Of a DNA stretch of 64,000 nucleotides, positions 26,843 through 37,384 are shown piece by piece. The notes under the pieces are model-generated. The model ran no database searches, had not been told where the DNA came from, and saw nothing but the letters and a program-made list of their open reading frames with translations. The DNA is taken from the NCBI GenBank assembly GCA_902779125.1, contig CACZAC010000013.1:1-64000 (forward strand). Direction: 5' to 3'. The number at the start of each line of letters is the position of its first letter. The stretch's first letter is position 1. This DNA comes from an uncultured Bacteroidales bacterium (GTDB taxonomy: Bacteria; Bacteroidota; Bacteroidia; Bacteroidales; Muribaculaceae). The position numbers were made by a program, and so were the translations under genes.

Positions 26843-29149
26843 CTAGAAGGGATATCCGATGGCAAGGTGGAATGTCAGGATGTCCTTGATTTTAGGAGGA
26901 ATATTGAAATATCCACGTCTTCCTGTATCGTAGGGGGCGTGGATTGCCATACCCAGGTCGGCACGCACGACGAGCATCGTCATGTCAAAGCGCAGACCAA
27001 CGCCCGTGCCCAATGCCAACTGGTTAAAGAAGTTTTTCATCTTCAACTGAGCACCAGGGCGATTCTCATCTTTCTTGAGCAGCCACACATTACCCGCATC
27101 CAGGAACACAGCACCCTTGAAGTAACCCAAGATGGGGAAACGCCACTCGGCGTTGGCCTCGAACTTGAAGGTACCCGTGTGGTAATAGTAGGCGTTGTGG
27201 ACACTGTCGGGGAGGTGGTAACTACCGGGACCGATTGAGCGAACAGGGAAAGCACGGACAGAGTTGGAACCGCCCGCATAGAACTGCTCCCTATAAGGCA
27301 GCTCGTTACTGTTCCCATAGGCATGCACAGCTCCTAAGAATATTCTAGTCGCCAACGTGCTGACATTGCCCAGTCGTCGCGACCACACCACTTGTCCCTG
27401 AGCTTTAACGAACTGCGAGAACGGTGTTCCTAACAGTTCTTTGGTCCCATCGGATTTAAAAATGGACCAGATTCCCGACAAGACGTTGCCCGCCTCGGCT
27501 GCACCAGCCGTCAAGGTAATATGGTCATTATGGGTAATGTCGCGGTCATAGGTATAAGTGTATTCAATCTTCGGGATGAATACTCTCATGAAACTTTCGG
27601 CCAAAGCAGGATTGTTATCCATCGATTTCTTAAATTCATCGGAACTGCTGATGACCTTGCTGAAAGTGAGGCGGAAAGGCGTGAGCACATGACTGGAATA
27701 GCGGTTGGCATGCCACTCCCAAGTCATGGCAGCACTCATCTGCACCATCTTGAACCAATCAGGGCGGTTCATCATGTCGGCACTGAGCGAGAAGCGTGTC
27801 CAATTGGTGTAACGGCGCGAGGGATAGAGGAACTTGGGCGCCAACAGGCGCGGAAAGTCCAATTTACCTTCGATACCGAACTCGTAGGAGTCCAGGTCAC
27901 TACCTCTATTGGCCCGGCGACCCGTCTGCCACTCATAATTGCCATAGATGTCCACTGCAAACTTCTCCCCTGCCCCAAAGGCATTCTTGTGGCTTGCACC
28001 GACTTCCAAACCCGGACCGATGTAGCTGTTATCCTTGGATGAGCCATGCATCTGGAAAGTCACCTCCCAAGGCTTGTCCAACTGGCAATAGATGTTCAGG
28101 TCAAGTAGTCCCTCGCCATCGGGGGTGATGGTGTCGAGAGGCACCACCTGAATGTCCACTGTACTAAAAATTCCCAAGCGAGACAACGCCACTTGAGTGC
28201 GGTCAATGCTGTTGATGCGGAACTGCCGTCCTTTGCGGGCACGAATACAATTGGGAATGACATCATCCTTGATGTGCACGGGCTCATACTTGATGAGGGT
28301 GCAATTACGGGTAATGATGGTATCGGGGTCACCCACGCCATCATCATTGACCACCTGGGCGGTAATGTCATGCGTCAGGTAACGGCGGTTGGCATTATTG
28401 GGAATGTCGTTTGCCTCAATCATTTTCAAGTGAATCACGCCCTTGTCCTGAATACTGTCGGCAAGATACTGGATATACTCGGGACGGAAGAAATAGTAAC
28501 CACGGTTGCGCACGGCATTGGTGATGTCGATGCGCACGGCATTGATCGAATCCAGACAATAGCGGCTGCCTGTCTTCAGGTAGCGGTTTTCCCGCGCCAA
28601 CGAGTCCACGAGGTGCAACAGCGGTTCGCTATCACCGATGTACTCCACATTGCCAATAGTGTAAGGCGGCTTGATGTTGACGTCGTAAGAAATCTTTGCC
28701 TTCTTGGGGTTACTTGACGGGTTCAACTCATAGGTTGCCGAAGATGTGAAATAGCCGTTGTTGCGCAGAATCGTGTTAATCATATCGACACGCGCCTGGG
28801 GGTTAACGCGCTTGATGAGCACCGGCTTGGAAGCAAAATGCCTGTAAAGCCACCCCTTGAAGCCCGTGGCATCCTCGTCGATGTTGTTGTAAATCATCAA
28901 GCCGAAGGGGAACGGCGTGCGATAATAAGGAGAGTAGAGCGGATTATTGGGCTTGACGTTGATGGCCGTAAAAATGTCGGTTTTCACACCCTCATCCACC
29001 TTGACGCCTTCCTCATGATACTTGAGGCGCTTCACGCCGTCATACAGCACGTCATTCTCGCCCAACTTCTTGGTTGTCGAGCACGATGACGCCAGCAGTG
29101 CCATGAGCACGCCCAGCACAATATATATTTTATGGTTCGCTCTCATCAT
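26843..29149 (-). CDS. TamL/TamA-like Omp85 lipoprotein
   Basis: A 768-residue protein. The N-terminus is a lipoprotein signal (VLGVLMALLASSC, cysteine near residue 23), the Bacteroidetes variant TamL. POTRA-like repeats follow (for example PPYTIGNVEYIGDSEP and RKGRQFRINSIDRTQVALSR). The Omp85 barrel (about 390-768) contains the conserved GGSNSVRAFPVRSIGPGSYH and ends ILTFHLAIGYPF with a terminal Phe. It works with TamB in outer-membrane protein or lipid transport. The gene start overlaps the tamB stop by 20 nt. Confidence 0.9.
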   Translation of the reverse strand: MMRANHKIYIVLGVLMALLASSCSTTKKLGENDVLYDGVKRLKYHEEGVKVDEGVKTDIFTAINVKPNNPLYSPYYRTPFPFGLMIYNNIDEDATGFKGWLYRHFASKPVLIKRVNPQARVDMINTILRNNGYFTSSATYELNPSSNPKKAKISYDVNIKPPYTIGNVEYIGDSEPLLHLVDSLARENRYLKTGSRYCLDSINAVRIDITNAVRNRGYYFFRPEYIQYLADSIQDKGVIHLKMIEANDIPNNANRRYLTHDITAQVVNDDGVGDPDTIITRNCTLIKYEPVHIKDDVIPNCIRARKGRQFRINSIDRTQVALSRLGIFSTVDIQVVPLDTITPDGEGLLDLNIYCQLDKPWEVTFQMHGSSKDNSYIGPGLEVGASHKNAFGAGEKFAVDIYGNYEWQTGRRANRGSDLDSYEFGIEGKLDFPRLLAPKFLYPSRRYTNWTRFSLSADMMNRPDWFKMVQMSAAMTWEWHANRYSSHVLTPFRLTFSKVISSSDEFKKSMDNNPALAESFMRVFIPKIEYTYTYDRDITHNDHITLTAGAAEAGNVLSGIWSIFKSDGTKELLGTPFSQFVKAQGQVVWSRRLGNVSTLATRIFLGAVHAYGNSNELPYREQFYAGGSNSVRAFPVRSIGPGSYHLPDSVHNAYYYHTGTFKFEANAEWRFPILGYFKGAVFLDAGNVWLLKKDENRPGAQLKMKNFFNQLALGTGVGLRFDMTMLVVRADLGMAIHAPYDTGRRGYFNIPPKIKDILTFHLAIGYPF

Positions 29150-32100
29150 CTTTCTTACGGTTTACGGTGGGTCGGTCGATGGCATCATCAGGCTTAACGG
29201 TTTCTTCGTTGTCTCGACTTATGGCATCGATGGCCTTCTCCTGCAACTCAAGCTCGGCCTTCCGGTTCTCTTCAATCAGCTTGTATTCCGCTCTGCGCGC
29301 CTTCTCGAGCGAGTCACGCAAGAGGTATTCCTTGGAATGCTTGAACTTGAAGAGGTTCCTCAAGTCAGTGAGTTTGCGCTTGAGCACATAAGCGACACCA
29401 GTCTCGGTCACTTGATCCTCGAGCATGCTCTCATACTTGACTTGACGGAAGAGTTTGAGGTATCTGTTGCCAGAACTGTTCAGATAATACTCCAGCGAGA
29501 TATCGTTGAACAGGTTGCTGGCGATTTTCTCTTCGTTGGCGGCATCGGTGTTGTACTCACCACCGACAACAATCTTGAAGCGGTCGTTGAACAGCGTCTT
29601 GGCGAGGCGGTAGCTGTAGCTGGTTTCGGTGCCTTTAGCCTTACCCTCATACTGGTTGATGCCGAATGAGAGGTCAACGCCTGGCAGCGTCTGTGCCGCC
29701 CATGCATTGAGTTGTGACTGCAGGAATGAGAACAGGGAGGATGTCGCAGTGACGCGGCTGATGTTGCCTTCGCTCCTGGTTCCGGAATAGGTGTTGTACA
29801 ACAGCAGGTTGATGGCAGCCTGCGAACGCTGGTTGTCGCTCATCGCCTGCAGCTCGTTGCGCACCTGCATGTCGCTCTCGCAATCCAGGTCAAACTTCAA
29901 ATCAATGCCATTGAGCGTTCCACCCACATGGGCATTGATGACAAACTCGACGGGATGAGTGCCTTTTTCATCGGTGGTGGCGCTGGCCTTGAGTCGCTCG
30001 ATGCCTTTGAGGTCCAGCTGCGGGTTGAGCATGTCACCGGTCCATGTCATGCTGCTGCCGCTGATGATGTCGAAACTCTTTTGAGAGAGGAGCGGCGGCG
30101 TGTAGCGCAGGTTACCACTCTCGATGGTATAAGTACCTATAAGATTGTCCTTACCTGCAAGGTCGAGCGTGTATTTCAAGCGTCCGCTGCCATCAATCGT
30201 GGCACGGTTTTGTCCATCCTCCGAAAGATAGGCGTTGATGATTGCACCTTTCTCCACGTTGATGTTGACGAGTATGCTGGTCGCACTGCTACCCTTGCCC
30301 GTCACCAGAACGGTATGTCCGCTCTGGTGATGGTTGAAATCGGTAAAGGTCACCATATTCTCGTCCACCTTTGTTGACAGTTGGGAAATGTCATTTTTCA
30401 TGACATAGGTGATATTGGAGCCATTCAACAGGGTTGCGTCGGCCCGCACAGTCATCACATCACCATGCCCCTTGACCGTGGCATTGATATCAGCAACGCC
30501 CCTGCCGAACAACTGCGTTTCGTCATCCTGCTTGCTGTTCATGAACTGTACCAAGTGTCCCTCGGCCTGCAGGTCGATAATCATATTATCCAGGTCACGC
30601 AGGTCAACAGTGCCGTTAACGGTGACAGGACTGCGATTGGCACCCGTCAGCTTGTAATTGTTGAAAGTAATTACATTGTCCTCGACCGGGATGGGATCAC
30701 TTGTCAACTTCAACGAACTGCCATAACGCGGCAGGTTGACCGTTGCCGAGTCGGCAGTGAGGTATCCATGGATGTGGGGATTGTCGGTAGAGCCGTCGAT
30801 GGTCATCGTGCCAATGGCATAGCCGTCGAGCCAGATGTAATTGCCGGGAATGAAAGCGTTGGCACGGGACAGCGGGAAGCGCTTGAAGCTGGCTTCCATG
30901 TTGAGGGGTGTTGCCGCCGTGGCATCATTGAGAGAGCCTTGCAAGTTGATGGCATTCTTGCCGTCAAGAATCAGATCGGCGTCCACGCGAGTTGCCGCCG
31001 TTGCCGGGTCAAAGTCAAAGTCGGCATTCAACTTCACGTCGCCCTCTTCCTTGCCATTATAGACAAAGTCCTTGATATCAATCACGCCGTTACCATCGGC
31101 ATTGGCGCCGTCCCAAACGAGATCGACTATCGCATTGACCGTACCGCTGGTCTTGTCAAGCATAGGCACAATGCGCGTCCACTCCTCGAGTTGCAGATTG
31201 TTGATATTGAGCTGGACGTTCTCGGCATTATCACCTGGCAATCGGTATGTCGCCAGTTCGATGCTGCTGCTGTCGCTGTAGAGCATCAGGTTGGCGTCAA
31301 TCATGCGTGAACGCAAATCGACATTCACAAAATTGTCGTCATTAAAATCCCAGTTGCGGTAACCGATGACCGGATCCTTGCCAAAGAGACGCATAGCCAA
31401 CTCATCATCGGTCAGACGGGCGTTGCAGCCCAGGCGATAGCCTGTCTCGCCCTTAATGTTCTGCTGATGCAGCATGAAGTCCACCGTCGGCCCCTTGATG
31501 CCGCCCTCGACATCGACCTTGGCGAACTCGTCCCATGTGCCCAGGCGGTTGCCCATGTGGGCGTTGAAGGCAAGATACTTGTTGTTCAGTTCATTGGCAT
31601 AGATGGTTACGGTGTCGATATTGGTATCGCCGTAGCTGATACCATGTGCCCTGCCGTCGAGGAACAAAGTGGAATCGCGGCTCATCTCACAGCTGAAGTC
31701 ACGGAAGTCTATCTCTTTCTGCTGCAAGTAGCGCTGCACGATACCATCGGTACCCATGTGCATATCAAAGTCGAACCAGGGCATGGGTTCCTTCAAGCGC
31801 TCAATGTCTATCCAGCGCTCATCCATTTGACGTTGTACCTCCTTGGCCGTATTCTGGAAATCCTCAATCAGCTCAGTAATATGGCTGGGAGAATTGAGGT
31901 GGGCATAATTGGACTCATTCTCGACAGTGATGCAGGTCACGTTGGGCGTGCTGTGCACCTGGGCATGGGCATCATCGGCGACAAGCAGAGTGCTGTCCAA
32001 TTGCCAGTCAATATCATTGAGCGTGAGATCAGCGTCCCAACGACGTGTGCGCAGGTTGATGTCGCCCTCGGCATGGAGGCGCGTCGAGCCATTGCATATT

Positions 32101-34070
32101 CCGTCATACATGCCCAAACGGTTCAGGTCCACATCGCGCAGGTCGCCGTCAGCCGTGAATACGTAATGGTCGTCGCAGATGGTGCCATGGGCATCGGCGT
32201 CAAAGTCATTGCCCTTGACGCGACCAGCAGCATACACATCGGCATAGCCCCCACGCAGTTTTCCTCTGGCCCTGATATTGCCATAGCGGGTGCCGTTATA
32301 GCGCACATTGCCCAGGTTGACTGTTGCATCGGTCCAAGTCGAGCCGCAGTCGGTGAAGTCGAAGCCATGGCCACGGGCATTGACGCTTGCCGTGAGGTCC
32401 TTGACATCATAATCGGGCAAGAACGACTTGACGGGGAAGTTGTTGAAAGTGGCATCCACATCGTAGTTCTCGTTGCAGACGTCATAGTAACCGTCACCAC
32501 GCATCGTGCCACCGCCTGTCGAGACGCGAAGGTTGCGGGCAACCCATCGGCAGCCTTCCTTATTGATTTTTCCGCTCATCTTCATGGGTGGGAGTTTCAC
32601 GCCATCCAGTCCGAGCATCTTGTTGAGGGCGCTCGGGTCGCGCAGGTCCACCTCGGTGTCAAGGTCGGCCTTCATGCGGTCCATGTCGGTAGGATTGTAG
32701 ATGGTACCCTTACCCTTGATGCGGCCCAGACCAGGCACGTCGGCATCCAGCGAATGGATGTCGAGGCGCTTGTCGTTGCCGCGGGCTTTGGCCTTGAGGC
32801 GCACCGGCTTGTTGTGCGGGAGGTCCTTGAGTGCTTTGCGGGCATCAGGCACCAGTTTCTCCACCTCGTTGAGGTCGATTTTGCTGTCGGTGTCGATGCT
32901 GGCCTTGCCGTTGGGCTTGCCATCAAGCATATCCTGGTCCACATGGGCATCCATCTTGATGTCGCTGCCCTTGGTCTTGAGTTTCACGTCATCAAGGTCC
33001 AGACCGTTCTTGTTCTTGGAAACAGTGCCGCTGGCGTCCTTGACCTGCAAGCCGCTGCGTTCCTTGCCCGAGAGGTGCTTGACGGGCACCTTGAGGTTGT
33101 CGCCATCATACTCAAAATTGTCGACGGCGGCATTCACGTCCTCGACTTCGATATGGTCAGGATCCAACGAGGTGCCGGGTTTGTTGGGTTTCTTCCCTGT
33201 CTGGGCGTATTTGCCCTTGCTGTTCGTCAGGCGCACCTTGTCGGCCTTAACTTTCCATGGTTTGTCGTCACCCTTGTTCTGGTTGGCATCCTTGGGCATG
33301 GGATGGTCCTTGCTGTACTGCTTGGCGTCCTTCTCGCTGGGATACTCGTAATTCACGTCGGCCTTGTCCACATCGAGGCTGCCCACGTCAACGGTCTGTT
33401 CTCCGGTATCGACTTTGACATCCTTGGCTTCGGCATGACCCACCTTGGCATCAAGTTTATCGACAGTGGGCTTCATGTCCATCTTGAAGTCCACATCATC
33501 GGCAGTGACTTTATTGGCATTGACTTTCCAGGGCTTGCTCGGCTCCTTGTTGGGCTCAGGTTTCTTCTTCTCGGGCTTATAGCTCATCTTTGCCTTACCA
33601 CCCTTGAGTGCCGCGTTGCCCACATCGACCTTGTTACTGTTCAGGTCAACCGAGGCGGCATCGATTTTGGCATCGTCCACATCTACGTCCAGATCCATCG
33701 AGCCGTCTTCGGTTTTAATCTGGCTTTTTGCACCTTTGAGCGAGGCGTCCTCAACCTCTACTTTCTTGTCAAACAGCGGTTTTGGCTTCACGTTGGCTTT
33801 CACCTCATCGGCCTTAAAAAGGGTGTCTCCGTTTTGGTCGATAACCTGCACGTCAGTAGCCGAAACGTCAAGCGGGAATCCTATCTTCACATCGCCAACG
33901 CTGATGTCCATGCCGGTCTTCTTGCTGGCATACTCGGCAGCCATGTCGGCAGCTTTGTTTTGAACCCAAGGGATATAGGCGGCGAAGGGCAACGCTGCTA
34001 TAGCACTCACGATGCCTGTAGCGAGCCATTTCGTCACTCTGGAGAACATATTTCCCTTTTTGCCAAACAT
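29130..34070 (-). CDS. tamB: TamB (translocation and assembly module, DUF490) protein
   Basis: A 1646-residue protein with one N-terminal membrane anchor (about 14-34, WLATGIVSAIAALPFAAYIP). AsmA/TamB-type beta-rich repeats follow over the whole periplasmic length. The C-terminal DUF490 domain is seen in IIDLQAEGHLVQFMNSKQDD, GTYTIESGNLRYTPPLLSQK and INQYEGKAKGTETSYSYRLA. Residues about 90-430 are unusually rich in Lys and Asp. TamB forms a groove across the periplasm and pairs with TamL, encoded next to it with a 20-nt overlap. A weak promoter (TTG, 18 bp, TATTTTTG; 34198-34170) lies 100 nt upstream. Confidence 0.92.
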   Translation of the reverse strand: MFGKKGNMFSRVTKWLATGIVSAIAALPFAAYIPWVQNKAADMAAEYASKKTGMDISVGDVKIGFPLDVSATDVQVIDQNGDTLFKADEVKANVKPKPLFDKKVEVEDASLKGAKSQIKTEDGSMDLDVDVDDAKIDAASVDLNSNKVDVGNAALKGGKAKMSYKPEKKKPEPNKEPSKPWKVNANKVTADDVDFKMDMKPTVDKLDAKVGHAEAKDVKVDTGEQTVDVGSLDVDKADVNYEYPSEKDAKQYSKDHPMPKDANQNKGDDKPWKVKADKVRLTNSKGKYAQTGKKPNKPGTSLDPDHIEVEDVNAAVDNFEYDGDNLKVPVKHLSGKERSGLQVKDASGTVSKNKNGLDLDDVKLKTKGSDIKMDAHVDQDMLDGKPNGKASIDTDSKIDLNEVEKLVPDARKALKDLPHNKPVRLKAKARGNDKRLDIHSLDADVPGLGRIKGKGTIYNPTDMDRMKADLDTEVDLRDPSALNKMLGLDGVKLPPMKMSGKINKEGCRWVARNLRVSTGGGTMRGDGYYDVCNENYDVDATFNNFPVKSFLPDYDVKDLTASVNARGHGFDFTDCGSTWTDATVNLGNVRYNGTRYGNIRARGKLRGGYADVYAAGRVKGNDFDADAHGTICDDHYVFTADGDLRDVDLNRLGMYDGICNGSTRLHAEGDINLRTRRWDADLTLNDIDWQLDSTLLVADDAHAQVHSTPNVTCITVENESNYAHLNSPSHITELIEDFQNTAKEVQRQMDERWIDIERLKEPMPWFDFDMHMGTDGIVQRYLQQKEIDFRDFSCEMSRDSTLFLDGRAHGISYGDTNIDTVTIYANELNNKYLAFNAHMGNRLGTWDEFAKVDVEGGIKGPTVDFMLHQQNIKGETGYRLGCNARLTDDELAMRLFGKDPVIGYRNWDFNDDNFVNVDLRSRMIDANLMLYSDSSSIELATYRLPGDNAENVQLNINNLQLEEWTRIVPMLDKTSGTVNAIVDLVWDGANADGNGVIDIKDFVYNGKEEGDVKLNADFDFDPATAATRVDADLILDGKNAINLQGSLNDATAATPLNMEASFKRFPLSRANAFIPGNYIWLDGYAIGTMTIDGSTDNPHIHGYLTADSATVNLPRYGSSLKLTSDPIPVEDNVITFNNYKLTGANRSPVTVNGTVDLRDLDNMIIDLQAEGHLVQFMNSKQDDETQLFGRGVADINATVKGHGDVMTVRADATLLNGSNITYVMKNDISQLSTKVDENMVTFTDFNHHQSGHTVLVTGKGSSATSILVNINVEKGAIINAYLSEDGQNRATIDGSGRLKYTLDLAGKDNLIGTYTIESGNLRYTPPLLSQKSFDIISGSSMTWTGDMLNPQLDLKGIERLKASATTDEKGTHPVEFVINAHVGGTLNGIDLKFDLDCESDMQVRNELQAMSDNQRSQAAINLLLYNTYSGTRSEGNISRVTATSSLFSFLQSQLNAWAAQTLPGVDLSFGINQYEGKAKGTETSYSYRLAKTLFNDRFKIVVGGEYNTDAANEEKIASNLFNDISLEYYLNSSGNRYLKLFRQVKYESMLEDQVTETGVAYVLKRKLTDLRNLFKFKHSKEYLLRDSLEKARRAEYKLIEENRKAELELQEKAIDAISRDNEETVKPDDAIDRPTVNRKKDDESEP

Positions 34071-34763
34071 TTAGCTTGTCAGTTTTATCAAACAACCAGG
34101 TCAACAACGAACAACATCAACAACCAAAATGGTGTTTTTGTCTTCTGCCTTAATTGTTTATATAACTTGCAAAAATACTAAATTATCCGTAATATCAAGG
34201 AAAAAATTACCATTTTTACGCAAAAAGACAAAAACAAGATTAAAAAGAGATTCTATACCTTTTTTGATGAATCAGTTGAAACGATGTTGTGCTCATTTAC
34301 TATAGGGGGCGCGGAAATGTCAACAAGATGTTAAAATCCATTAGTATCCGGTAAAGATTTTCAACATCGGCATAATTCACTATATAAGCCCAATAATCAT
34401 TTCTGCTGTATTATGGGCTTGGCTTTTGCCTCGTAGGGGCAGGTCGGGTCGAAGACTCGACTTTTATGGAAAACACCATGCAAGCTCATCGAAGATGAGC
34501 GCAGCTTGGTGGCAGCAGGAACAAGTGGAAAGTGCGTCGCAGACGAACTTCCACATCCGCCAAAATCCTGTCAATCAAAAAGTTCCTCTTCGAGGCACTT
34601 GCAATATTCAGCTCATGGACCAAGCTGCGAACCTCTACGAGGTTCTTGCATGGTCTTTTTTATTAAAAATCGGTTCTTCGAACCGCTAACATCTACGATG
34701 TTCCCCCGGACACTAATAGTTAAATTCCATTAGAGTCAGCCATGATGAAGTAATGATTCCCCC
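34071..34763. other. 693-bp intergenic region with a structured hairpin element
   Basis: No supported gene. 34071-34200 holds the tamB leader and promoter candidate. 34200-34420 is AT-rich without clear features. 34427-34702 is the paired hairpin element listed separately. 34764 begins the glgP terminator. The short frames here (34426-34689 and 34506-34733) run through hairpins and look spurious. Confidence 0.6.
34427..34702. repeat. Inverted pair of four-hairpin elements with GNA triloops
   Basis: Eight short hairpins lie in a row. On the plus strand: 34427-34441 (loop GTA), 34443-34461 (GAA), 34484-34500 (GAA), 34530-34550 (GCA). On the minus strand: 34600-34580 (GAA), 34645-34629 (GTA), 34685-34671 (GAA), 34702-34688 (GTA). 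Every loop is G-N-A closed by a C-G pair. The two halves are inverted copies. CCATGCAAG (34476) and GCAGCTTGG (34501) around the third hairpin recur as CCAAGCTGC (34620) and CTTGCATGG (34645). Stem sequences differ between copies but pairing is kept. Confidence 0.85.
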
Positions 34764-34805
34764 CAAAAAAGCTGCCCGAGAGGCTTTGAGGGTCTCTCGG
34801 GCAGT
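34764..34805 (-). terminator. Intrinsic terminator after glgP
   Basis: On the minus strand CTGCCCGAGAG (34804-34794) pairs perfectly with CTCTCGGGCAG (34782-34772). It is followed by GC and a six-T run (34770-34765). It is 27 nt past the glgP stop. Confidence 0.9.
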
Positions 34806-34831
34806 TGTTGATTCTTGTTAGGGGTTCTTGT

Positions 34832-37384
34832 TTAGAACCACTTGAGATAGGCGAAGTCCTGACGGTGAGGCAGGTTGTCGTTCCAGGGGAATGCACGGTA
34901 AGCATAGCGGAAGATACCATTCTCACGGAAGGGAACTTTGCAGTTGTAGGTCAAGATGTTGCCGTCCTCGGCGATAACATCGAACATGGCCTTGCGGTAG
35001 AACTTGGTCTGACCGTCTTCCTCCTTGTAAACCACGAGTTCGAGCTTGATGTCACGTCCCAAACCGGCAGTGTCAAGGCGCATGGTAACATTGATGTCCT
35101 CCACGCCACGAGAGATGGCGTCACGGTTGCCCATGATTTCTCCCACGAGCTGTACATCATTCCATCGGTCAGCGACTTTCTCCTTCCAAGCCACGATTTC
35201 GCGGGCAAGAGCATAATTCTTGGCCGTGAGGCGATGGGCACGCTCAGCCTGGGGACGGTAGAACTTGACAAAGTAGTCCTTCATCATGCGCGACATGGTG
35301 TAGTTGGGAGCGATGTGTACCATCGAGTTCTTGATGTATTGTACCCACTCGGGAGAATAGCCCTTGCTGTTCTTGGCAAAATACAGGGGGATAATCTCGT
35401 TCTCGAGCATCGAGTAGATGGTTGCCGAGTCGAGTTTATCCTGCTGGGACTGCTCGGTGTAAGTGCGCTTGCTGGTCAGAGCCCAGCCAGCACCCTCGCG
35501 GTAACCCTCATACCACCAGCCGTCGAGCACCGAGAAGTTGAGCAGACCGTTCATCTCGGCCTTCTCTCCCGATGTACCCGAAGCCTCCAGGGGACGGGTC
35601 GGGGTGTTCAGCCACACGTCAACACCCGTGATGAGGCGCTTGGAGAGCGTCATGTCATAGTTCTCGAGGAAGATAATCTTACCAAGGAACTCGGGCATCT
35701 TGCTGATTTCGATAATGCGCTTAATCAGGCCCTGACCGGCACCATCGGCGGGATGTGCCTTACCGGCGAAAATGAACTGAACGGGGAATTTCTCGTTGTT
35801 GACAATCTTCTTGAGGCGCTCCAAGTCATTGAAAATGAGGTGGGCACGCTTGTAGGTGGCAAAGCGACGGGCAAAGCCGATGAGCAGCGCGTCGGGGTTG
35901 ATTTTGTCCACGATATTGGCAATGCGGGTGGGATCGCCCTGGTTCTTGAGCCAGTTCTCCTTGAAGTCACGCTTAACGAAGCGGATGAACTTCTGCTTCA
36001 AAGTCATGCGCATCTTCCAGATTTCCTCATCAGGCACACTCATCAAGGGCGCCCAAGCAGATTCCAGTTCCTGGTGCTCCAGGAAATCGTCGCCCAGCAC
36101 CTTGTTGTAGAAGACCTTCCACTCACTGGCAGCCCAGGTGGGCATGTGAACGCCATTGGTAACAAAGCCCACATGTGACTCCTCGGGGGCATAACCCTTC
36201 CAAATTCCAGCAAACATCTTCTTGGACACCTCGCCATGCAGCCAGCTCACGCCGTTGCTCTCCTGGGTGGTGTTCAAGGCAAAGGTGCTCATGCAGAAGC
36301 GCTCATCGCTGCCGGGGTTCTCACGGCCCATGTCCATCAGTTCCTGCCAGGAGATGCCCAGACGTTCGGGATATTCACCCATGTATTTGCCGAAGAGTTC
36401 CTCGTCAAAATAGTCGTGGCCAGCGGGCACGGGGGTGTGAACGGTGTAGAGCGAGGTAGCACGGACGATTTCCATTGCCTCGTTAAACGACAAGCCATCA
36501 CCCTGCACATAGTCCACGAGACGCTGCAGATTGAGCAGCGCTGCGTGGCCCTCGTTGCAGTGATAGATGTCGGCCTTGATGCCGAGTCGCTTGAGCAGGA
36601 GCACGCCGCCGATACCCAGCAGGTATTCCTGCTTGATACGGTTCTCCCAGTCGCCACCATAGAGCTTGTGGGTAATCTCGCGGTCATAGTCGCTGTTCTG
36701 GTCGATATCGGTGTCGAGCAGGTAGAGCTTGACACGGCCCACGTTGGCCTGCCAAACGTTGACATAAATTGTGCGACCGGGATAAGGCACCTCATGCACC
36801 AGCTGACGGCCGTTCTCGTCAAGAACAGGCTCGATGGGCAGCTGGTTGAAGTTCTGGGCCTCGTAGTTGGCAATCTGCTGTCCGTCCATCGAGAGGGTCT
36901 GGGTAAAGTATCCGTAACGATAGAGGAAGCCCACGGCGGTCATGTTGACGCAGCGGTCACTAGCCTCCTTGACATAGTCGCCGGCGAGGATTCCCAAGCC
37001 ACCCGAATAAATCTTGAGGGCGTTGCACAGACCGTATTCCATACAGAAGTAGGCTACCGAAGGCAGGTCTTTGCGCAGCGGCTTCTTCATGTATTCCTTA
37101 TAGAGTTCATAGGTGCTGTCAATGCGTGCCATCATGGCAGCATCGGCCTGTATGGCATCAATCTTCTCGTTGGAAAGACGCTGCAGCATCTTCACGGGAT
37201 TCTCACTTGTGGCGCGCCACGTGTCGCGGTCCAGGTCGTGGAAGAGGGTCTTGCCCTCGGTGTTCCATGCCCACCACAGGTTGCGTGAGAGTTCGTTGAG
37301 TTTCTGGAGTTTACCAGGTAAATCTGACTTCACAGTGATATTTCTCCACTGGGGGTCATTGGTGTTGCTAACTTGAAATTTCAT
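34832..37384 (-). CDS. glgP: Alpha-glucan (glycogen) phosphorylase, DUF3417 type
   Basis: An 850-residue GT35 phosphorylase with the N-terminal DUF3417 domain ([20 protein letters not shown]) typical of the Thermotoga-like subgroup. [16 protein letters not shown] and [18 protein letters not shown] form the active site, and the PLP lysine is Lys608 in [14 protein letters not shown]. It releases glucose-1-phosphate from alpha-1,4-glucan in the cytosol. It is 15 nt downstream of the glycogen synthase gene, so synthesis and breakdown enzymes share an operon. The family usually has EASGTSGMKA; here Met is replaced by Glu, next to the lysine. Confidence 0.93.

Follow-up and report, generated by a model that had tools for sequence, protein, structure and literature searches.

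Repetitive extragenic palindromes (REP), paired as bacterial interspersed mosaic elements (BIME, REPIN), form with the transposase TnpA-REP (RAYT) the REPtron, in which multi-copy inverted hairpin pairs have a conserved foot and a variable stem and a low-copy Y1 gene lies between inverted hairpins at a fixed site. Another group of transposases, TnpA-Y1 subclass 1.2, consists of proteins of about 150 amino acids with the signature Y---Q--HH, present in Bacteroidetes in few copies per genome and close to IS200 transposases; in the passages of a 2018 survey that deal with it, the subclass is without the properties of an insertion sequence (IS), without a listed DNA partner and without associated hairpins (PMC6006769). 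A third relative, the Bacteroidales BrickBuilt of Porphyromonas gingivalis, is a miniature inverted-repeat transposable element (MITE) that, in the excerpted account of it, trapped and spread a repeat (PMC4596501). The element reported here lies in a window of 64,000 nucleotides (the whole stretch of DNA analysed, positions 1 to 64,000 of contig CACZAC010000013.1, assembly GCA_902779125.1) from an uncultured Muribaculaceae bacterium, and it probably consists of two layers, a new REP-like hairpin family having been captured as the cargo of a MITE.

The first-pass annotation of this DNA had proposed eight hairpins with GNA triloops in two inverted arms of four, and all eight were found in place, H1 to H4 on the plus strand and H4' to H1' on the minus strand (Table 1). 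In DNA, a GNA loop is very stable when C-G closes it. As to the quality of the stems, six of the eight pair without fault by Watson-Crick rules over 4 bp or more around C-GNA-G, and the description fell short for H1 and H2, which carry one G.T wobble each; the apical stem of H4 and H4' is 4 bp long and has a mismatch below it. In 2000 dinucleotide shuffles the number of perfect C-GNA-G stems on the expected strand, six here, was 0.04 on average and 2 at most. The two stem-3 alleles, GCTCATC/GATGAGC and GAACCTC/GAGGTTC, had been given exactly, and the flanks of hairpin 3 are indeed exact inverse complements. Folding of 34340-34717 gave z values of -8.7 and -8.9 on the two strands as DNA and of -9.3 and -10.8 as RNA (100 shuffles), a strength that owes part to pairing between the two halves. 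A coding reading, by way of the 87-amino-acid open reading frame at 34426-34689, which crosses the hairpin stems, was set aside. The span 34427-34702 is the hairpin core alone; the mobile unit is 34340-34717, and the terminal inverted repeats and 9-bp target duplication bounding it had been overlooked.

Covariation was measured in H3 on 88 distinct sequences, collected by their conserved flanks and not by pairing. The named structure is paired in 97.3% of 1320 cells, two-sided changes fill 227 cells against a shuffle mean of 85, and the covariation score is 0.429 against 0.115 in shuffles, reached by none of 500 shuffles, in a test that is free of the bias of a fixed H4 pattern but in which related rows can beat shuffles without structure. 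With partners slid by 1 to 3 columns the score was at most 0.078. The foot is nearly invariant, [CG]ACCATGCAA / GC[AC]GCTTGGT[GC] with unpaired AA and GCT; its outermost pair alternates (C-G 42, G-C 41), and the T-A pair beside the bulge is unpaired in 17 of 88. Relative to the flanks, 65 of 84 distinct cores have a GNA loop, 3 have the inverse TNC and 16 have something else. Such a strand bias would be needless for a double-stranded DNA site, and to us it suggests that one strand of H3 folds. The selected single-strand structure that had been proposed, and that had been made dependent on covariation, is supported by H3, which covaries strongly. A structured RNA spread on a mobile element, be it a regulatory RNA, an mRNA stabiliser or a terminator, would also fit strong RNA folding and covariation, but one-sided changes such as G.U are few (just 21 cells against the 227 two-sided ones), the arms face both strands, and Rfam has no family over the hairpins, its four sub-threshold matches all lying at 34725-34808, which makes this explanation very improbable.

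A covariance model of H3 and H4 (R1) was built from 19 arms selected by a fixed H4 pattern. In these the score was 0.350 against 0.103, while neither two-sided-change pairs (7 against 6.6) nor further pair types (18 against 16) stood out; in H4 one pair covaries, and its outer pairs, two in number, are broken in 5 and 6 of the 19. Searching relatives with a covariance model, as had been suggested, recovered many arms. Within the window R1 found two arms and no more; it found at least 24 in the window's own genome, arms in at least 83 of 101 same-genus genomes and in at least 25 of 198 genomes sampled from the family (11 of the 25 outside the genus), all lower bounds since no more than 47 candidates per genome were scored in the same-genus set and 24 in the family set. 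The doubt as to whether copies exist elsewhere is removed by these numbers. BLASTN detected many full or partial copies in the own genome. In a relatives set of 41 genomes it matched 15, all of the same genus (25 of the 41 are same-genus, own included), with no match in the 16 other-genus genomes of that set. Many copies, often as inverted pairs, are what is seen in REP/BIME: in genomes G097 and G005, where a close tnpA (see below) is present, the 20 arm regions comprise 11 inverted pairs and 9 single arms.

Two variants of H3 were observed in passing. In L023, L130, L166 and L090 the loop is TTC, TTT, TCC or TAC and the foot is unreversed, as though the apical hairpin had been flipped. In four copies of the own genome (L004, L005, L010, L012) a common insert of about 75 bp lies, by eye, within the H3 foot of one arm; being common to the four, this nested piece seems to have spread with the element.

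In relatives, a gene for an HUH/Y1 transposase of about 150 amino acids (tnpA) is flanked by arms in inverted order, and its position corresponds to that of the 29-bp spacer in the window, the layout being otherwise the same. At 30 tnpA loci, the best match from each of 30 genomes taken nearest to the query first, R1 found one arm on each side, inverted, in 27; at L101 and L104 the contig ends on the side of the missing arm, and L106 has a weak one-sided match alone. With a strict regular expression both arms had been recognised at 10 of the 30 loci, one at 18 and none at 2, a low yield caused by its demand for perfect pairing in a fixed frame; a looser scan can match both orientations, and R1 replaced both scans. 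In 13 of the 30 loci tnpA lies between the identical two neighbours (the other 17 differ or could not be judged), so that a hairpin-flanked Y1 gene at a stable site, a mark of REP/BIME, is present in these relatives too.

The TnpA protein matches Pfam Y1_Tnp with 73.5 bits, its sequence relatives among solved transposases include ISHp608 TnpA, and its predicted fold (model pLDDT 79.4) is nearest to ISDra2 and IS608 TnpA, TnpA-REP (4er8) ranking 30. The system thus resembles IS200/IS605 elements such as IS608 and ISDra2 in its HUH/Y1 fold and, by prediction, its hairpin substrates. End hairpins of the IS608 type lie on one strand, whereas the arms here are inverted and tnpA is syntenic in the 13 loci given above. 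With the NCBIfam IS200 model (cut-off 55 bits), one of four proteins reached 58.7 bits and the other three 36.6 to 50.9. With the REP_Tyr_transpos model NF047646 (cut-off 80 bits), the first member reached 23.9 bits. The Y---NP signature was not found. Residues H51, H53, Y111, Q115, H118 and H119 are invariant in 22 aligned rows (22 of 32 loci; L172, L183, L186, L191 and L193-L198 left out). The signature YIxxQxxHH, of the YIINQREHH type, is the Y---Q--HH of subclass 1.2, as is the length of about 148 amino acids, the assignment being by signature and not by published subclass profiles. The HUH motif is NH[IV]H in 20 of the 22 rows and DHIH in 2, so mainly NH[IV]H, against DH[IV]H for this subclass in the survey table (PMC6006769).

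Since the arms flank a tnpA of this signature, they look like a REP/BIME-type partner for subclass 1.2. The likeness to REP/BIME that had been noted stands for the inverted pair and the many copies, but the arms are not classical REP: they have four hairpins with GNA triloops, H3, judged on its alignment alone, is without the GT[AG]G tetranucleotide foot, and the enzyme is not a class 2 RAYT, having Y---Q--HH where RAYT have Y---NP in the survey's passages on these classes (PMC6006769). The flanking of tnpA by arms differs equally from the listing of subclass 1.2 in those passages (PMC6006769), and would give the 'no associated hairpins' entry a DNA partner; the arms are a concrete candidate substrate for its members in Bacteroidales. 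As far as seen, the partner is not common to the whole subclass, in that two Chryseobacterium members are without arms and divergent members of the genus have other flanking matches. These matches, inverted and identical within each locus, flank divergent same-genus tnpA genes at L066 (20 nt), L075 (27 nt), L106 (21 nt) and L073 (45 nt), lengths read without a control where other loci there have 5 to 27, and they hint at enzyme-hairpin pairs evolving together. At L187 (Bacteroidetes bin.444), hairpins with a GTA loop, caaccgc-GTA-gcggttg, stand on either side of a distant Y1 relative and point the same way, not inverted. Most of the named relatives among the TnpA matches are assemblies of Bacteroidales, Prevotellaceae or Muribaculaceae, and several bear rumen or other ruminant-gut names.

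The Y1 partner that had been anticipated is flanked by arms in relatives, but the own assembly yielded no close tnpA: the sole TnpA protein match there is weak (E 1.1e-12), and two Y1_Tnp domains belong to longer frames. At an assembly completeness of 90.67%, a copy could have escaped. At the site shared by the 13 loci, tnpA is absent and one arm is kept in the own genome and in G103, and in G021 and G006 there is neither tnpA nor arm. Across the genus, the median number of arms is 13 in the 29 genomes with a close tnpA (at least 66% identity, a threshold chosen by eye) against 2 in the other 72, kinship unaccounted for, and with MITE-bearing genomes removed it is 11 (18 genomes) against 2 (67 genomes).

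The second layer was recognised by its ends. Window-type copies share ATTRGTGTCCGG ends with 9-bp duplications one base outside; in the window the single base 34339 separates the left duplication from the terminal repeat, and likewise in other copies. Among 17 full copies, 9-mers identical in at least 8 of 9 positions were found in 8, against 1 of 272 cross-pairs, and no 9-mer duplication was found at offsets 0, 2, 3 and 4. In a second set of 15 like-ended MITEs (15 of 20 fetched regions; 11 without arms) the duplication was present in 6, against 1 of 210 cross-pairs, with 1 of 15 against 3 of 210 at offset 0, probably A-runs. Both sets pooled gave 14 of 32 copies against 2 of 482 cross-pairs. 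The first test left out L127 and the G006 copy (L023, L046, L128), whose ends are unclear, one alternative L139 pairing and copies with fewer than 14 flank bases; copies with a left end missed by BLAST, among them L006 and L008 (8/9 by eye), stood outside the test. Terminal inverted repeats, a target duplication of fixed length and the lack of an internal transposase are all present, as in MITEs, and with these repeats and the duplication, movement as a MITE is the most likely history of the window copy.

That the Y1 transposase alone spread the arms, window copy included, with terminal repeats and duplications being incidental, is unlikely. Arm number does track close tnpA, and among the 20 arm regions of G097 and G005 an end-like site occurs in one, where it is single and carries one mismatch. 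Against this reading, window-type copies have in common their exact ends, their terminal inverted repeats and their 9-bp duplications, which Y1 enzymes are not known to make; MITEs with the same ends exist without arms, and a close tnpA was not found in the own assembly. Conversely, a plain MITE, whose inner palindromes either were neutral filler or were bound as double-stranded DNA by some protein, would agree with the other cargo held by same-ended MITEs and with the 23-nt repeat trapped by the P. gingivalis MITE in the account available (PMC4596501). Against it stand the identical arm type flanking tnpA in 27 of 30 loci and the compensatory changes and GNA/TNC strand bias, which point to a folded strand, and we regard it as quite improbable. 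BrickBuilt itself differs in the same excerpted account by its cargo, a 23-nt tandem repeat, and its IS5-like ends, the cargo here being a hairpin array of a Y1 system (PMC4596501). The MITE left end (query 34337-34424) is present in 16 of the 101 same-genus genomes, own included, and 11 of these 16 also carry close tnpA; together with the presence of arms inside MITEs in several genomes this would be compatible with arms and MITE ends having co-evolved as one system acted on by Y1 and DDE enzymes, but each layer occurs separately too, and of all the explanations this is the hardest to credit.

A source for the MITE ends was sought among complete elements. No whole IS with MITE ends was found with 12-base patterns in the own genome (one mismatch) and 15 relatives (exact), 20 regions being fetched; the end pairs found there, 135 to 478 bp apart, are MITEs, and longer pairings in L150, L157, L161 and L163 were set aside, each relying on a two-mismatch site. 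Searching nine genomes for DDE_Tnp_1 (PF01609) gave 7 matches in four, and the three of these proteins that were scanned all belong to the IS4 family (NF033592, 254.2, 248.8 and 207.4 bits). Two of the elements, L223 and L224, have transposases carrying DUF4372 and DDE_Tnp_1 and terminal bases similar to those of the MITE: L223 (G084), of 1275 bp, ends in ATTAGTGTCCACTAAAAA and ATTGCTGTCCACTAAAAA, and L224 (G093) in ACTAGTGTCCCATTAAAA and ATTACTGTCCCATTAAAA, with a perfect 9-bp duplication, ATTCAAAGT, by eye at the same one-base offset. In contrast to them the MITE is without a transposase and its inner terminal bases differ, and no element with ends identical to the MITE was found among the IS4-family elements examined. 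A match to an IS end, which the first-pass annotation had named as speaking against itself, is touched in part, the arms being enclosed by terminal repeats that resemble IS4-family ends. These ends make an IS4-family enzyme our candidate, named with reserve, for the mobilisation of the MITEs.

We judge that the element works like a REP/BIME pair which has a Y1 partner and rides on a MITE, the MITE having IS4-like ends, and the earlier interpretation is partly supported, its observation being confirmed and its reading right in part. In the first layer, each arm would be a REP-like unit of four GNA-triloop DNA hairpins and two inverted arms a BIME-like pair; most likely a subclass 1.2-type TnpA-Y1 reads the arms in folded, single-stranded form, above all through the bulged foot of H3, and cuts or moves them, with tnpA held REPtron-like at one chromosomal site in one clade. 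In the second layer, tnpA would have been lost from its site in this lineage, where an arm pair is enclosed by MITE ends, the order of capture being conjectured; the window copy most likely arose by insertion of double-stranded DNA, carried out in trans by a DDE transposase, probably of the IS4 family, which would have generated the 9-bp duplication. In this case hairpins of one class of transposase are carried by another kind of element, and such carriage could account for the survival of REP-like repeats in genomes from which their enzyme is absent. A broader and more tentative view, which we hold somewhat less likely than its opposite, is that subclass 1.2 Y1 proteins are domesticated enzymes of single-strand DNA whose own REP-like partner, the arm of four GNA-loop hairpins, spreads in two independent ways: TnpA would move it in single-stranded form, and a DDE transposase would move it inside IS4-type MITEs, so that it outlives the loss of tnpA. 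No description of the arms or of the MITE was found in open-licence PMC articles, judged on titles and abstract openings.

Several observations weigh against the two-layer reading. The flanking test is partly circular, as 10 of the 19 rows of R1 were drawn from the 30 tnpA loci, and two Chryseobacterium relatives of TnpA are without such arms. Each tnpA contributes two arms itself to the comparison of arm numbers, which ignores kinship, and arms persist in 14 of 20 genomes of the genus without any tnpA match at 1e-5. As for the MITE, 18 of the 32 copies have no duplication at 8 of 9 positions or better, and in G103, the nearest of 19 relatives (99% by the first 328 residues of the phosphorylase), the orthologous spacer is without the element but holds another insert, so that it is no clean empty site. 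On the side of the mobiliser, PF01609 had no match in the own genome, G116, G085, G080 and G101; L223 is without a clear duplication; beyond base 10 the ends of L223 and L224 diverge from those of the MITE, and in three of the four there is a further difference at base 2 or 5; L225 (G103), the third element of the IS4 family, has the ends GGCTGTCCCAAGAAAA, with little beyond TGTCC in common with the MITE; and among L223-L229 the end pair of the pattern scan spans the transposase in L223 alone.

Table 1. Features of the element and its surroundings, in coordinates of the window.
Feature	Position	Strand	Basis or remark
TamB-domain gene	29130-34070	minus	
Left 9-bp target-site duplication copy, GTTAAAATC	34330..34338	.	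8/9 identical to 34719-34727
Whole MITE, 378 bp	34340..34717	.	end-to-end copies elsewhere in own and related genomes
Left terminal inverted repeat, ATTAGTATCCGG	34340..34351	+	differs by one base from common ATTRGTGTCCGG
MITE left-end domain, without GNA hairpins	34352..34426	+	
Hairpin H1, GTA loop, one G.T wobble	34427..34441	+	sequence
Hairpin H2, GAA loop, one G.T wobble	34443..34461	+	sequence
Hairpin H3, bulged conserved foot CACCATGCAA / GCAGCTTGGTG, variable apical stem, GAA loop	34474..34511	+	alignment, pair counts
Model R1 match covering H3 and H4	34474-34550	+	
Hairpin H4, GCA loop	34530..34550	+	model R1 match
Inter-arm spacer, 29 bp	34551..34579	.	comparison with L057, L059, L063 and others
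Hairpin H4'	34580..34600	-	model R1 match
Hairpin H3', apical stem unlike H3, minus-strand loop GTA	34618..34655	-	alignment, model R1
Hairpin H2'	34671..34685	-	
Hairpin H1'	34688..34702	-	
Right terminal inverted repeat, minus strand ATTAGTGTCCGG	34706..34717	-	
Right target-site duplication copy, GTTAAATTC	34719..34727	.	
Inverted repeat, read as phosphorylase terminator; element downstream of it	34767-34809		
Alpha-glucan family phosphorylase gene	34832-37384	minus	TIGR02094, 858.6 bits

The element sits between the alpha-glucan family phosphorylase gene and the TamB-domain gene. Further repeats were seen in and around similar elements. One copy, in L107 (567-861, G000:C9), has in its left part a nested insert bounded by the inverted ends CGTTGGCGGAATTA / TAATTCCGCCAACAG. 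Further genus repeats contain palindromes, AGCCCGTAGGGCT or AGCCCCATTAGGGGCG for example; those in L152, L153 and L156 lie inside same-ended MITEs, and a genus repeat at about 1120-1380 of L213 has palindromes of the same kind.
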